This document shows, piece by piece, positions 10,923 through 16,240 of a DNA stretch of 37,176 nucleotides. The DNA lies in contig JAFGKK010000017.1 of NCBI GenBank assembly GCA_016928575.1, positions 1 through 37,176 of the forward strand, given 5' to 3'. How positions within the stretch are numbered: position 1 is the stretch's first letter; every line of letters starts with the position of its first letter. The notes beneath the pieces were generated by a model. The model searched no databases. It was not told the origin of the DNA and was given only the letters and a program-made list of their open reading frames with translations. Both the position numbers and the translations under genes were made by a program. This DNA comes from Anaerolineales bacterium (GTDB lineage: Bacteria; Chloroflexota; Anaerolineae; Anaerolineales; RBG-16-64-43).

Positions 10923-11495
10923 TTACGCCGGAAGCCACAAAGCATAAGAAAGCTTGTTGTCTTCTCGGAACCTGACCGCGAGGCTGCCCCCGAGTTTTTC
11001 GGCGATTTTCCGGCACAGCATCAATTCCGGCTGGGTTACGAATTCTTCCTCGAATTCCGCGTTATTTTTCCAAGGCAGGATGATGCTATCGGCCGTCAGC
11101 CGCAGGGTGAATCCGCGGCGCCCATCCACGGCGGTCTCTTCCAATCCGATGGTGACCCAGCCTCCTTGCTGGGAGACCGTCAGCAAATGAATCACCAGCG
11201 CGTTGACCGCCCGGCGCAGGATTTCCTCGTCCACTGTCAGGGAAACCCCCGCGGCGCGGATTTGGATGCGGAGAATGACGCCCAGTTCGGCGGCCATGGT
11301 GGACAGCACCGCCGCTCCCCGAAACAGCATTCCGACCAGATCGGCGTTCGACGGCCGCACAGGTTCGCACAGGCGCCGGGTTAACTCATCCGCGGCAGAT
11401 TCGGAAATCAGAATCTGCAACGGGTTTTCGCCGCGTGCCGGCGGACGATTCTCCACCGCCTCAAAGCCTTTTCCCAAGGAAAACGCCTCCGACAA
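10923..11495 (-). CDS. Degenerate histidine-kinase-type ATPase domain protein
   Basis: The product (190 residues from a TTG at 11495) looks like the catalytic half of a sensor histidine kinase. DEEILRRAVNALVIHLL stands where the N-box helix would be, followed by GWVTIGLEE, and the C-terminus LMLCRKIAEKLGGSLAVRF matches the G2-side helix and strand. There is no phospho-acceptor His domain, no membrane helix, no clear DxGxG (G1) motif, and the second N-box Asn is Ile. It may bind ATP weakly or only partner other proteins. A second possible start is a TTG at codon 7, with GGAGG 8 bases upstream. It lies downstream of the small-peptide locus but beyond a terminator. Confidence 0.6.
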   Translation of the reverse strand: MSEAFSLGKGFEAVENRPPARGENPLQILISESAADELTRRLCEPVRPSNADLVGMLFRGAAVLSTMAAELGVILRIQIRAAGVSLTVDEEILRRAVNALVIHLLTVSQQGGWVTIGLEETAVDGRRGFTLRLTADSIILPWKNNAEFEEEFVTQPELMLCRKIAEKLGGSLAVRFREDNKLSYALWLPA

Positions 11496-11570: not shown

Positions 11571-11606
11571 AAAGGAAAGGGCGCGCCACCCCCTAGTGGC
11601 GCGCCC
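11571..11606 (-). terminator. Terminator of the small-peptide cluster
   Basis: GGGCGCGCCAC (11579-11589) and GTGGCGCGCCC (11596-11606) form a perfect 11-bp stem with a 6-base loop. On the minus strand it is followed by TTTCCTTT. It lies about 100 bases after the zinc-ribbon gene and separates it from the ATPase-domain gene. Confidence 0.75.
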
Positions 11607-11702
11607 GGGGACGTACTGCCATCCAGCCCTTTTTCGGGCGCCCACCCCCCGGAGAATTCCGATTGCGAGTGCCTTTAGAAGTCCGGGATGGCTTTCAAAC
11701 CG

Positions 11703-11915
11703 TCATTGCATCGGGACAACATCCACGGGATTCAATCCGGACGGCTCCAAGGGGACAGGCAAGATGTCGGTTGCATTCTCCCTGGTGGTCAGGGCGCTGA
11801 GGCGGTCCCGCTGCATGCACCGCGGGCAGAATAGCCGGTACACTTCCCTTTCCACATATCCGCAGACGCTGCAGACCCGCTCGCCGCCCATCTTTTCGAG
11901 TAAGCTTTCGTTCAT
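11703..11915 (-). CDS. Small zinc-ribbon protein
   Basis: The 70-residue product has two CxxC pairs, C15/C18 (CSVCGY) and C30/C33 (CPRC), spaced as a compact zinc ribbon. The C-terminal half is Leu/Pro-rich and without motifs. It lies 45 bases after the NHLP-clan-like gene on the same strand and ahead of a strong hairpin terminator, so it is probably the last gene of that unit. The ribosome-binding site is modest (AAAGGA or AGGGA ahead of the ATG). Function is unknown; zinc-ribbon adaptors or regulators of this size are common. Confidence 0.65.
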   Translation of the reverse strand: MNESLLEKMGGERVCSVCGYVEREVYRLFCPRCMQRDRLSALTTRENATDILPVPLEPSGLNPVDVVPMQ

Positions 11916-11960
11916 CGGTCCCTGTCCTTTGACCTTTGGATGGCCGGATCCGGCCGGCGG

Positions 11961-12248
11961 TCATCCGCTGCGGGGCGGGAGGTCCACCTCAATCGGCCTT
12001 CGAAATTCGAACGCGGCATAGCCCTGAACCTTATGAGCCGCCTGCCTCCACAAACGCGCCACCCGCTCGACGCCGGCGGCGAATTCCTCGATGGTCTCGG
12101 CTTGAATGGCCAGCAAGGCTTCCTGCTCCCGGGGGTCAAGTCCAGCGGAACGAAGCAGTTGCACCCGATCCGATCCCAACAGCCGCGCACGGTAGGCGTC
12201 ACTCACAACAGCCTGACAGACAATTCTCTGTATCGCCGAGTTATGCAT
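11961..12248 (-). CDS. NHLP-clan-like small protein (nitrile hydratase leader-like)
   Basis: The 95-residue product resembles the leader-like proteins of the nitrile-hydratase-leader (NHLP) clan, part of which are RiPP precursors. It has an N-terminal helix, then SDAYRARLLGSDRVQLLRSA, then GLDPREQEALLAIQAETIEEF, the pattern of an Asp/Pro-capped 'F/YR..LL.D....L...GL' leader. No Gly-Gly cleavage site and no Cys/Ser/Thr-rich core is obvious; the C-terminus ends in EVDLPPRSG. It may thus be a leader-only partner protein rather than a precursor. GGAGG lies 9 bases before the ATG. It sits 54 bases downstream of the 27-codon peptide gene. Family placement is from memory of the pattern. Confidence 0.6.
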   Translation of the reverse strand: MHNSAIQRIVCQAVVSDAYRARLLGSDRVQLLRSAGLDPREQEALLAIQAETIEEFAAGVERVARLWRQAAHKVQGYAAFEFRRPIEVDLPPRSG

Positions 12249-12302
12249 CCCTTGGATCCTCCCTGCTGCCGGCTTGCACAGCCTGGTTTTTGGACTTGAT
12301 AA

Positions 12303-12386
12303 TTAGAACCATCCACCTCCTCCCGGCGGCGGTGCTCCCGGAGGGCAAGTGAAGCGGATGGTTTGGCGGGAATTGATGCGACGCAT
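12303..12386 (-). CDS. 27-residue peptide gene with GGGGWF C-terminus
   Basis: A short open frame with the strongest ribosome-binding site noticed in the window: AAAAGGAGG (12400-12392 on the minus strand), 5 bases before ATG. The peptide begins MRRINSRQTIRF and continues with TCPPGAPPPGGGGWF, then TAA. The N-terminal half is basic (four Arg) and the C-terminal half is Pro/Gly-rich with a single Cys and a terminal Trp-Phe pair. I do not recognise it. Its place just before an NHLP-clan-like gene and downstream of a very large transcriptional regulator on the same strand suggests a precursor or signalling peptide. A leader peptide that couples translation to the next gene is an alternative. Confidence 0.5.
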   Translation of the reverse strand: MRRINSRQTIRFTCPPGAPPPGGGGWF

Positions 12387-12400
12387 GTGGGCCTCCTTTT

Positions 12401-13023
12401 GGCCTGGTCCCTCCCGATCTCCCTTTCCATGCTATTACCGCATCCTCAACAAACACCTCACAGTGGGATTGTCAGATATAGACGTTTAATCCTATCCGGA
12501 CCTAATTAATCCAATTTCGGTTTTTCTTGTAGGAGAAGGAAGAATTGGGACAGGCGCTCGGGACGGGCGCTTGGGACATTCCGCTGATGGAAAGCTATCC
12601 CCTCCCCTGAGGTAAAGAGGGAGTGTAGGAAGCCCGCCCCGACTCCGCCGTGCAGGCCGGGGGGCCGGGGGATAGGGGCGAGGTTGAATAACAAAAGGAT
12701 TTCTCCAAATAATTGAATTGACTGAGTAGAAAGAAGCGTCAATTCCGACCGGGTTTTCCTGCGCGGGACTCACCGAAAAATCGCACTGCCGGCCTGTTCG
12801 ATTTTTGGTTTTTTGTTTCCCTCTGAGAAGATATCCCCGGTGTCTTCAGCCCTTCTTCGACATTTCGGTCTGCCATCCGAAGCCATGCCGGGGCGTCGCA
12901 GAAAGACACCCAGCGGAAGACATCCGGCCTTCCAATCTCGCCCCGGCGTTTTCCGGTCGCAGCCCGGGATCGGGCGGCGGCGCAGCCGGACGGCTGTCAT
13001 GGATTCCGATATCTATTGTGGCC
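12401..13023. other. 623-base gap upstream of the peptide gene; palindromes and decayed sequence
   Basis: No convincing gene. The stretch is more AT-rich in places than its surroundings. It contains the inverted repeat at 12715-12745 and a Gly/Cys-poor, C/G-tract-rich segment (about 12595-12690) with CCTC and GAGG arms that looks like a dispersed non-coding repeat. It must hold the promoter of the peptide cluster; a TAGCAT hexamer at 12434-12429 (minus strand) is a possible -10 but has no -35. Confidence 0.5.
12715..12745. repeat. 8-bp perfect inverted repeat, possible operator
   Basis: GAATTGAC (12715-12722) and GTCAATTC (12738-12745) are exact reverse complements, 15 bases apart, in an AT-rich patch between the SARP-type regulator and the peptide cluster. 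It could be a regulator binding site or a hairpin. No T run suggests a terminator. Confidence 0.4.
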
Positions 13024-16000
13024 TTATTCGGCGTTCGAAATCAAATTGTCGTAGAGGGTGCGGGTTTCGAGCGGAGGATCCAATCCTAAATCGTCCCGCA
13101 GCAATAAGAGGTATTTTTGATAATGATCTACCATTTCGTGCTTTCTTCCCATCGCCGAGAGGATCTTCAGCATCCGCTGATGCAGATCGTCCCGGAACGG
13201 ATCGATTTCCAATCCGCGGGCGGCGCGCGCGCGCGCCTCCTCATACCGGCACTGCCCGAAATATTCGTCCGCCGCATCCCGAACCAACGCCAGGAACAAT
13301 TGGTTGATCTCCTCCCGGCGCCGGCCGGCCCAGTCGACCGGCACGTCCCCTAGGTATTCCCCGCGGAACAACTGGGCGGCCCGGTCCATTTCCGCAAGCC
13401 TCCGCCGGTCCGTGATCGGTAGCGCCAACGCCCGGCGGCCGGTTCTCTCAAACGCGGCGACGTCGTATTCGACCGTGATGTTCTCCGCCAAGCGGCAGAT
13501 CTGGTCCTTCAGCAGGAGGATGTCGGCTCCGACCGCCCGCCGGATCCGGTACAGCGTTTGATAGAGATTCGCCTGAGCCCGGCCGGCCGGCATCTCCGGC
13601 CAGAAGACGCTCAGCAGTTCCTCCCTTCCCACCGGCGAACGGTCGACCAGGTACAAAAAGACCTCTTTCGTCTTTTGGGAAACCCAGGCCGACCGGGAAA
13701 CGGCCGCTCCGCACCAAGCGATCTCCAAGGAACCCAAGGCATTGACCGCAAGCACCAAGGTTTCGGCCGGCGCGGCCGGGGATTCCTCGGCGCGGGGTTT
13801 CCGCAACTGCCGCTCGGACCGCTCCGCGAGGGATACGCACATCCCGCCCAAGGTCGGATGCCCCGCAAAAGCGTCCAGCAGGTCCCGCGCACACCCCGCC
13901 TGGCGCACCAGGCTCTGGTCCGATCCGAAGGCGAACACCGAATCGAACGCCGCGCGCAGGGATTCTTCCGCCTGCGGATTATTGCCCGCGCGGAAAAATG
14001 ATCGCGCCAGCAGGAAGCGCGCTTCGGCGGTGACGGTCTGGCTGGCGCCTGCGCACTCCAAAACCCCGAGGCCGTCCTTCAACAAATCCACCGCCTCGCG
14101 TGTGCGGCCCATTTCCTCCAGCAAGACCCCTTGCAGGATCCGGTCGCCCGCGCGCGTCACCTCGGTTTCCTTTTCCACCAATTCTTCCGCCCGCTGCAGC
14201 CATTCCATCGCGGCGGGATAGTTCTTCAACCACCGGTTCAGATCAGCCCACGCCCGGTAGAGATACGCGAGCATCGGCAAATCCCCGGTCTCCTCCGCCA
14301 GCCGGTCGGCCATGGCGTAGTACCCGCCCGCCTTGCTGTACTGGCCTCGGTCCTTCATTAAATCGCCCAGGCCGGCGAAGATCAGCGTCTGCGAATGCCG
14401 GTCTCCGGATTTCCTGGACCATTCCATCGCCTCGGCATAGGCGGCTTCCGCCTCCTCCAACTGGCCCATCATGTGCTGGTCGTAGGCCAGGTTGTTCAAG
14501 CCGATGGCGATCGGTCCCGGATAGCCGAGTTCCCGCCACATCCCCAAAGCCCGCCGCTGGAGGACGTAGGATTCCGAGGTGTCTCCCGCCGCTTGAAGCG
14601 TATTGGCCAACTCGGTCAGAACGTGCGCCCGGTCGTAGCTTTTCTCACCTTCGGGGAATTTGGCCAGGGCTTCCCGGAGGCAGCGGATGGCTTCCGGCAT
14701 CCTTCCCAACGCCGCCGCGCACCGTCCGGCATGCTCCGCCGCCATCCGCAGGTCCGCGATTTCCACCCCTCCTTCCGGGCCTTTCCGCAGGAGCTCCGCA
14801 GCGAGATCCCAGCCCTTCTGATACTCCCCTTTGCGCAGCGCCAGCCAGGCCCGGCTGACCTGCAGGCTGTTCCGGCGGGCGGTGTTGTGCGATCTTTCCA
14901 AACCCTGGCGGGAGATCTCCAGGTACTCCTCCGCTTTCAAAAAATCCCCGCTCATTCCCAGCGTCATCGCCGCGCAGCCGAACAGCCGCGGAACTTCCAA
15001 TCGGACCGGATACACACGCCGGGCCCAATCTTGAAGGGTCTGGGTCCTGCCCGATTCGTAGTACTTTTGAACGTTTTCCTCCGCCACTTTCGCGGCGCGG
15101 GACAAATCCTCCGCCTCGACGAAGAACGAAAACGCCGCCTCGGGCATGCCGACCCGCAAACTCCACTCGGCGGATTGGTTGAACAGCTGCTTGTGCCTGG
15201 CCGCGTCGCGTTTCATATGTTCGGCCAGCAGGAATTCGCGGAACAGATTGTGGAAACGGTAGATGGGCGGATCTTCCCCCGCAGCAAAGATGAACAAACG
15301 GCGGGCGTCCAGCTGCGAAAGCATCTGCCGACTGTCGGAACGGCCGAGGACGAAGTCGCAGGCCGCCGCGTCCATATCCGGGAGCACCGACGCCTCGAGC
15401 ATGAATTGCCGCAGCGGGCCGGGCTGTTGTTCGAGCACCTCGCTCGCCAGGAAGCGGTAGATGCGGTCCTGGCCGATGATCCCCTCGCCGAGGGGCAGGC
15501 CTTTCCACAGCAGGTGGCTGCTGAGCAGGATCCCGGTCACCCAGCCTTCGTTCGCCGAAACCAACGCCTCCGCTTCGGCCGCCGGCAACGAGATGCGGTT
15601 GCGGGCCACGACCAGGGCTTGCACCTCCGCGGGGGTAAAGCGCAGGTGTTCCTCGCTGAAACCGGCCGCCTGCTGCAGCGCCACCAGGGGCGTGATGTGC
15701 AGCTCCGGAACGCGGCGGCTGATCAGGAGCAGGTGCAGGGCCGGCGGCATCTCCCGCAGGATGGCGTTTATGAATTCGACAATCTGGGGGGAATCGTCCG
15801 TCAGGTGGAAATCGTCGATCACCAAAACGGTGAAATCCGGAAGCGTGCGGTCCAGCGCACCGGCCAGAGCCGAACCGAGCGCGCCGGGTTTGCCGGTTGC
15901 GGCCGGCAAGCCGATCAGATTCGGCGACGGAGGATCCCAATCCTTCCAGGCGAAGGCCAGCGCCTGGACGATGTCCGCGCAGAATACGGAGGCATCCCGG

Positions 16001-16227
16001 TCGCCGGAATCCAGTTGCAGCCAGGCAACCGGAGCATCCGAAGCGCGGGCGAATTGCGCCGCCAGGGTGGATTTTCCATATCCCGGCGCGGCGCACAACA
16101 GGGTAATCTTCCGATAAATATTCCCCTGCACGGCTTCCAACAGCCGCGGCCGTTCTAACTCCCCCTCAAGCGGTTTGGGGGGTAAGAACCTGGCTTTCTG
16201 CCGCGGAGCAAGCGGCGGAACGGGCAT
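13024..16227 (-). CDS. MalT-type STAND ATPase with SARP/BTAD transcriptional output
   Basis: The 1067-residue protein is a large signal-integrating activator. Residues 47-54 form a P-loop (APGYGKST), residues 134-140 a Walker B (VLVIDDF), and the ATPase continues to about 330 with the MalT-like YRFHNLFREFLL segment. A long TPR array follows (about 350-760). The C-terminus combines a winged-helix DNA-binding domain (about 805-900, KTKEVFLYLVDRSPVGREEL and ANLYQTLYRIRRAV) and a bacterial transcriptional activation domain (about 905-1060, VEYDVAAFERTGRRAL). This ATPase-TPR-wHTH-BTAD order is common in Chloroflexota. The ATG follows a TACAAT -10 by only 7 bases, so the mRNA is probably leaderless. 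Its targets are unknown; the peptide cluster just downstream is a candidate. Confidence 0.85.
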   Translation of the reverse strand: MPVPPLAPRQKARFLPPKPLEGELERPRLLEAVQGNIYRKITLLCAAPGYGKSTLAAQFARASDAPVAWLQLDSGDRDASVFCADIVQALAFAWKDWDPPSPNLIGLPAATGKPGALGSALAGALDRTLPDFTVLVIDDFHLTDDSPQIVEFINAILREMPPALHLLLISRRVPELHITPLVALQQAAGFSEEHLRFTPAEVQALVVARNRISLPAAEAEALVSANEGWVTGILLSSHLLWKGLPLGEGIIGQDRIYRFLASEVLEQQPGPLRQFMLEASVLPDMDAAACDFVLGRSDSRQMLSQLDARRLFIFAAGEDPPIYRFHNLFREFLLAEHMKRDAARHKQLFNQSAEWSLRVGMPEAAFSFFVEAEDLSRAAKVAEENVQKYYESGRTQTLQDWARRVYPVRLEVPRLFGCAAMTLGMSGDFLKAEEYLEISRQGLERSHNTARRNSLQVSRAWLALRKGEYQKGWDLAAELLRKGPEGGVEIADLRMAAEHAGRCAAALGRMPEAIRCLREALAKFPEGEKSYDRAHVLTELANTLQAAGDTSESYVLQRRALGMWRELGYPGPIAIGLNNLAYDQHMMGQLEEAEAAYAEAMEWSRKSGDRHSQTLIFAGLGDLMKDRGQYSKAGGYYAMADRLAEETGDLPMLAYLYRAWADLNRWLKNYPAAMEWLQRAEELVEKETEVTRAGDRILQGVLLEEMGRTREAVDLLKDGLGVLECAGASQTVTAEARFLLARSFFRAGNNPQAEESLRAAFDSVFAFGSDQSLVRQAGCARDLLDAFAGHPTLGGMCVSLAERSERQLRKPRAEESPAAPAETLVLAVNALGSLEIAWCGAAVSRSAWVSQKTKEVFLYLVDRSPVGREELLSVFWPEMPAGRAQANLYQTLYRIRRAVGADILLLKDQICRLAENITVEYDVAAFERTGRRALALPITDRRRLAEMDRAAQLFRGEYLGDVPVDWAGRRREEINQLFLALVRDAADEYFGQCRYEEARARAARGLEIDPFRDDLHQRMLKILSAMGRKHEMVDHYQKYLLLLRDDLGLDPPLETRTLYDNLISNAE

Positions 16228-16234
16228 GGAAAGG

Positions 16235-16240
16235 ATTGTA
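16235..16240 (-). promoter_or_regulatory. -10 element giving a leaderless regulator mRNA
   Basis: On the minus strand TACAAT (16240-16235) is followed by 7 bases and then the ATG at 16227. The predicted transcription start is within one or two bases of the start codon. No ribosome-binding site fits between. No good -35 was found. Confidence 0.5.

Follow-up and report, generated by a model that had tools for sequence, protein, structure and literature searches.

A predicted SARP-controlled micro-peptide cassette in Anaerolineae with a possible role in peptide signalling

The window analysed here, a 37,176-nucleotide stretch of contig JAFGKK010000017.1 from an Anaerolineales bacterium (Chloroflexota; assembly GCA_016928575.1), carries on its minus strand a gene of a giant regulator followed by genes of a micro-peptide, an Os1348/NHLP-like helical protein and a zinc ribbon (Table 1). 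Sequence comparison gives good in silico support for the first three of these being one conserved unit, and we lean towards the reading that this is a SARP-controlled peptide cassette, in which the adjacent SARP regulator controls the peptide operon and the peptide is probably exported and sensed. A first-pass annotation of this DNA had listed the four genes in this order and a terminator behind the zinc ribbon, all of which were found in place. It had missed the operator in front of the micro-peptide gene, a HATPase-like gene beyond the terminator and the wider peptide family.

The first-pass annotation had proposed a comparison of gene neighbourhoods across Anaerolineae as the test for a unit. 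The search for relatives of the NHLP-like protein covered 396 genomes of the class, from which about 120 loci of several kb were retrieved; in 48 of the 122 NHLP loci with enough upstream sequence, the giant regulator lies directly upstream on the same strand. A fixed rule for the peptide (ribosome site, hydrophobic segment and GAP-like motif) recognised it in 36/48 regulator-linked loci versus 3/76 unlinked ones (Fisher p 1.9e-17); the reverse strand gave none, and the shuffles an expectation of 0.32. After manual reading, a micro-peptide was present between the regulator and the NHLP gene in 47 of the 48 loci, the exception being L149. A first impression that the peptide is limited to the window's family proved wrong once other families were examined at the same position. 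A peptide-only model (A1), applied to 400 genomes of the phylum, again recovered peptides beside BTAD regulators and NHLPs. Since the linkage recurs across Anaerolineae, also from the peptide-only search, the proposed test speaks for a unit. The cassette is also present in the cultured Thermanaerothrix daxensis. The NHLP tree is poorly resolved and the regulator-linked label is strongly clustered on it (10 changes versus 38 when shuffled), NHLP loci with no adjacent regulator being mostly of another subfamily. The zinc ribbon, which had been counted as a member of the unit, keeps this place only in the window's family, consisting of three genomes (the window, L032 and L033); as a general member of the cassette it was rejected.

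The regulator consists of a MalT-like STAND NTPase (residues about 20-330), a TPR superhelix (about 430-805) and a SARP winged helix with BTAD (820-1065). Matches to TPR_12 (6.8e-22), BTAD (1.3e-17) and the MalT-like NTPase bear out its earlier description as a 1067-residue ATPase-TPR-BTAD protein, and it has the parts of a large, AfsR-type SARP in a domain order unlike that of AfsR. Its best solved relatives by sequence profile are MalT (8bob, 8.5e-77) and AfsR (8jke, 6.6e-49); the AlphaFold2 model (pLDDT 88.5) was matched by Foldseek to MalT (8bob, TMt 0.81) and promoter-bound AfsR (8k60, TMt 0.76). Matches of the TPR part include, besides many generic TPR proteins, the peptide receptors NprR and Rap. 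In the tree, peptide-linked regulators group in one clan, separate from other MalT-like paralogues (SH-aLRT 83), and when four more distant genomes were searched with the window's regulator, the top match was the peptide-linked one. A PADLOC scan gave a single generic TPR match and nothing else, so that a defence-system reading is unsupported.

The promoters of the peptides contain direct repeats with a period of 11-12 bp, which end shortly upstream of a -10-like hexamer (e.g. TTTTGAAGCCTGTTTTGAAGCCTGGGGGTATGTATAGT, GTAAGCACTTTTGTAAGCACCCTCTGTTACAAT and CGTGAGTGTTTCGTGAGTGTTTCGTGAGAGCGGTCTGCTATACT). By a fixed rule, a repeat with a -10 was found in 35/60 promoters versus a mean of 1.1 and a maximum of 4 in 40 dinucleotide shuffles; the 60 promoters include relatives, so this is an excess over chance and not a number of independent events. 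The window's own repeat is too imperfect for the rule and is not among the 35. It forms a conserved block across the three genomes of the family, no other site in its own genome comes within two mismatches, and TA(G/C)CAT follows exactly 9 nt past the second repeat in the window, L032 and L033. The T. daxensis peptide is preceded by a three-repeat SARP-type operator. The predicted geometry, repeats of about 11 bp just upstream of the -10, is that of AfsR, which at the afsS promoter binds a pair of 11-bp direct repeats, the upstream one overlapping the -35 (PMC10936776); heptamers with 4-nt spacers have been described for SARP-LAL regulators (PMC5930380). The sequence of the repeats differs between regulator clades, which would fit each regulator recognising an operator of its own. 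Most likely, and with good in silico support, the SARP domain would activate the adjacent peptide operon from these repeats in the manner of AfsR at afsS.

The commonest micro-peptides are 30-60 residues long, with a basic N-terminus and a hydrophobic or signal segment before a short Gly/Pro tail (ASGAPxxFGGxGGG, for example; other tails are GSGAPEAFGGTGGG, AGGAPHDFGGGG and GAGAPEDGGGVGR). Signal-peptidase-like sites, with the cleavage predicted by eye at the hyphen, are found in L298 (AFA-GPIPGGAGS), L321 (AIAFA-GPAGGGGFGGG), L289 (VHA-CPLDSCSVGGG) and L034 (TYA-DPLGGGGGGCGC). The peptide of the window's family comprises only MRRINSRQTIRFT-CPPGAPPPGGGGWF, the tail CPPGAPPPGGGGWF being kept and the hydrophobic segment absent; because its close relatives L034/L290 and L289 (100% clade) retain this segment, it was probably lost in the window's family and the [CD]P...GGG tail was kept. 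Other lineages have signal-less, multi-copy repeat peptides in the same slot (L335, L313, L296, L305, L314). In T. daxensis GNS-1 (L335) the unit RR(S/A)PQASGDIS, with dibasic spacers, is encoded by a 33-bp repeat, and further units are RRSPSDGGSST, FNQPLGGGIGTGPS, HHPVGGGVGTGPGLS and SAGVKAPGGGCG. The type of peptide in the slot changes several times on the regulator tree. Peptides sampled from the relatives matched no Pfam or NCBIfam family and so probably lack annotation in most genomes.

The peptide gene may be present in one to three tandem copies, each with its own ribosome-binding site. Tandem copies differ mainly at synonymous sites (synonymous to nonsynonymous changes 9:0 in L178, 11:3 in L041 and 11:5 in L044), showing that the micro-peptides are translated and constrained genes; between the window and L033, seven of the last 14 micro-peptide codons are changed, with one amino-acid change. 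These copies, the conserved protein sequence and the separate ribosome-binding sites make it most improbable that the micro-ORF serves as a translational leader or as an arrest peptide which controls the next gene by a PPG/PPPG stalling motif, although PPG and PPPG are located near the end of the window's peptide and the micro-ORF ends 54 nt before the start of the NHLP-like gene. The tails, moreover, vary in length and sequence, and an Rfam search found no element.

Another alternative is a cascade like that of AfsR and AfsS, with the small product acting as an intracellular effector downstream of the regulator and not as its ligand. The cassette has the layout of an AfsR-type SARP that activates an adjacent tiny gene from direct repeats, and the window's peptide is leaderless, but export or membrane segments occur in most peptides of the homologous slot, a 27-residue Gly/Pro peptide is unlikely to fold, and the relatives' peptides match no family model. 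We regard this cascade as decidedly unlikely.

A second class of micro-peptides, ending with AGA[EDN]xxW (e.g. MKWRMAYLKVMYALLVVASLVLAAGAELRWR), was observed in other Chloroflexota classes immediately before MASE9-type membrane sensors, which carry HD-GYP or histidine kinase output. One such locus, L250, groups a STAND-BTAD regulator, an AGA[EDN]xxW peptide, a MASE9 protein and DUF5317. The arrangement is consistent with peptides feeding signal-transduction proteins.

Peptides with a transmembrane segment might also be uncleaved membrane micro-proteins which modulate DUF5317 proteins, histidine kinases or MASE9 sensors and are not diffusible signals. The position of AGA[EDN]xxW peptides directly before MASE9 HD-GYP/kinase proteins agrees with this, as do DUF5317 membrane proteins near 31 of the 48 loci and kinase or response-regulator-type genes near 24 of them. 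It is nevertheless rather unlikely, as the window-family and repeat-type peptides keep the slot and the operator while having no membrane segment, and canonical AxA cleavage sites are present in several peptides.

The 95-residue protein had been labelled NHLP-like and leader-like, i.e. a possible precursor of a ribosomally synthesised and post-translationally modified peptide (RiPP). The label stands as remote homology to the Os1348/NHLP helical domain: the profile of its relatives matches the Os1348 crystal structure 6lk7 (E 6.5e-5) and several regulator-linked relatives score above the NF038399 cut-off, while the protein itself is below the curated cut-offs of PF14407 (E 2.6e-4) and NF038399 (E 5.2e-5), its scores against the two models being 23.2 of 40 bits and 21.7 of 48 bits. 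Foldseek with its model found no match, and neither did a single-query scan of the genome contigs. The leader-like part did not survive. No core region is conserved in the protein, and at several loci it stops about 8 residues past the helical domain, which makes it unlikely as a precursor; with no recurrent modifying enzyme either, this role was rejected. It is the micro-peptide gene that resembles a precursor. The Os1348-like protein probably serves inside the cell as a helper or modulator. The suggestion of a candidate peptide system was thus upheld as regards a recurrent peptide unit and not as regards a RiPP, since no modifying enzyme recurs nearby across the 48 loci.

The peptide itself could still be the final product, a secreted antimicrobial or a RiPP derived from the micro-peptide, with the SARP switching on the pathway and the NHLP serving in trans as leader or carrier. 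SARPs regulate antibiotic genes, a Pseudomonas Os17 cluster that affects antibiotic activity contains NHLP/Os1348 proteins (PMC7726476), the multi-copy units with RR spacers resemble multi-core precursors, and the slot sequence diversifies fast. However, no RiPP-modifying enzyme (radical SAM, YcaO, LanM etc.), protease or ABC exporter is recurrent across the 48 loci, many of the peptides are mostly Gly/Pro and have no Cys/Ser/Thr-rich cores, and the NHLP, often ending at the domain, has no core region. A final product of this kind is therefore unlikely, though we give it some weight.

In the favoured reading, a SARP-controlled cassette with a sensed peptide, the micro-peptide of most lineages would enter the membrane or the Sec pathway (basic start, hydrophobic segment, often an AxA site) and present or release a Gly/Pro-rich tail of 7-15 residues, an export to which the anatomy of the peptides points. 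Several tandem copies of a short unit, or the short leaderless tail of the window's family, would be alternative forms. The peptide may then act as a signal, and it, or the secretion state which it reports, would be sensed by the TPR superhelix via the MalT-like NTPase switch, with the peptide operon autoinduced as a result. The regulon of some Anaerolineales would extend to giant Rhs proteins. A broader proposal, which we put forward only tentatively, is that in Chloroflexota the cassettes may represent a separate class of cell-cell signalling by peptides, where secreted GAP-tail or repeat micro-peptides are read by autoinducing STAND-TPR-SARP regulators, and related peptides by MASE9 sensors, in some lineages switching on giant Rhs surface proteins.

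The extension to Rhs proteins comes from a search for TTTGAAGCCNNNTTTGAAGCC, exact or with one mismatch, in 19 genomes of the window's order, which gave 17 sites versus none for the reversed pattern. Eleven are peptide promoters and six are elsewhere, two of the latter standing before genes of secreted Rhs proteins 4069 and 3414 residues in length, which have RHS repeats and an Rhs core scoring above the cut-off. Downstream of the remaining four lie a histidine kinase/HD-GYP pair, a small LuxR-type protein together with an M23 peptidase, a second peptide and an unassigned gene. In the cultured Anaerolinea thermolimosa, one site lies before a peptide (MKTAFQLFITRMDGQKVRLALLILTLVLFILGAGAPEDTGGFYH) and an NHLP gene, and two others lie before short or broken Rhs genes (L373, L376). 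As T. daxensis and family f45, when searched, had the operator at the peptide only, control of Rhs would be a feature of some lineages; the sites are not weighed against the number of Rhs genes per genome. A search of the window's genome revealed no convincing further operator. In L285 a gene of an unassigned family (start MAKVRNNIVIKGLSGSIGDQLVIKQ) was noticed behind a perfect SARP-type operator and followed by an SNF2-type helicase gene.

Several observations weigh against the favoured reading. The peptide of the window lacks a signal sequence and has no dedicated exporter linked to it, the TPR fold matches of the regulator are generic, and the repeated changes of peptide type fit diversifying signals but equally secreted effectors. 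The off-cluster Rhs sites come from three genomes only, and none is in the window's genome or in family f45. In A. thermolimosa, the peptide and NHLP genes are under the operator and the regulator is not adjacent, the gene upstream of them (L371) resembling a PAP2 phosphatase; operator and regulator are thus separable.

Among the neighbouring genes of the window, the HATPase-like protein is 190-274 residues long across the three family genomes. Its identity is uncertain, the Pfam HATPase_c match being not significant (E 0.16), and it may be a counterpart of the histidine kinases which other lineages have downstream. A short interspersed repeat, rich in GC, is present in the intergenic region in front of the micro-peptide and may be the cause of the longer spacer in the window relative to L032 and L033.

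Table 1. Features of the window locus and of related loci (predicted elements are marked as such)
Feature	Location	Strand	Basis or remark
Giant regulator, 1067 aa	13024..16227	-	profile and domain matches, AlphaFold2 model, Foldseek
Short GC-rich interspersed repeat, intergenic	12560..12780 (core about 12661-12703)		>20 copies in the genome
SARP-type operator CTGTGAGGTGTTTGTTGAGG (predicted)	12444..12463	-	imperfect direct repeat GTGAGG / TTGAGG, period 12
-10-like hexamer TAGCAT (putative promoter)	12429..12434	-	TAGCAT in L032, TACCAT in L033
Shine-Dalgarno AGGAGG of the micro-peptide, 5 nt before ATG	12392..12397	-	AAAGGAGGCC kept in both other family members
Micro-peptide gene, 27 aa, MRRINSRQTIRFTCPPGAPPPGGGGWF	12303..12386	-	conserved in sibling genomes
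Os1348/NHLP-like all-helical protein, 95 aa	11961..12248	-	profile matches (remote)
Zinc ribbon (CxxC...CxxC), 70 aa, family-specific operon member	11703..11915	-	present in three family genomes only
Intrinsic terminator, 12 pairs including 10 G-C, then TTTCCTTT	11579..11606	-	terminator analysis
HATPase-like protein, 190 aa, 3' of the terminator	10923..11495	-	synteny in 3/3 family genomes
Repeat peptide of T. daxensis GNS-1	L335 8419-8607		RRSPQASGDIS x4
SARP-type operator immediately 5' of giant Rhs genes (3414 and 4069 aa)	L283 (G301:C50), L284 (G330:C14)		two Anaerolineales metagenome-assembled genomes
Unassigned-family gene behind SARP-type operator	L285 4688-5359
AGA[EDN]xxW peptides	L241 3448-3711 (two copies); L244 2593-2697; L246 1049-1147; L247 3981-4079
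AGA[EDN]xxW peptides	L248 2690-2896; L249 2953-3129; L250 3761-3865

The cassette is common in Anaerolineae and has predictable operators, which also offer a handle on the control of giant Rhs proteins in some of these bacteria. With the cultured T. daxensis and A. thermolimosa as hosts, peptide signalling in a poorly studied phylum becomes directly testable. A search of the open-access literature found no description of these peptide genes or of this widespread and apparently undescribed bacterial cassette.

Of the known systems, AfsR-afsS of Streptomyces has the closest layout: a regulator of SARP, STAND/NOD and TPR parts activates a tiny gene beside its own through two 11-bp direct repeats near the -35/-10 (PMC10936776, PMC10972967), and its SARP domain is similar (8jke). 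The Chloroflexota regulator, in contrast, has the reversed order NTPase-TPR-SARP, its tiny gene encodes an exported-looking GAP-tail or repeat peptide whereas the afsS product is sigma-factor-like, an Os1348-like gene follows, and the phylum is different. The sensor half, a STAND NTPase with TPR, is shared with MalT/LAL regulators (8bob), which have a LuxR HTH in place of SARP/BTAD. The inducer of MalT is a sugar. The Os1348/NF038399 proteins of the NHLP clan (Pseudomonas Os17) have the same kind of small all-helical domain (6lk7), while in the cassette there are no RiPP-type modification genes and the NHLP is a fixed partner of the regulator and the micro-peptide. A precedent for a SARP sensing a peptide is NosP, which, as cited in PMC10972967, responds to peptidyl ligands from the nosiheptide precursor. 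NosP is part of a thiopeptide cluster, of which the cassette has no equivalent. The RRNPP systems (NprR, Rap, PlcR) resemble the cassette in having a peptide gene, of several precursor shapes, beside a TPR regulator, with NprR and Rap among the TPR matches; export in the cassette is predicted from sequence, with the window's peptide signal-less, and Opp/Phr-type processing was not seen in it. The putative receptor of the cassette, whose peptide-binding role would be analogous, differs from the Xre-HTH and Rap phosphatase types in being a STAND-SARP activator.

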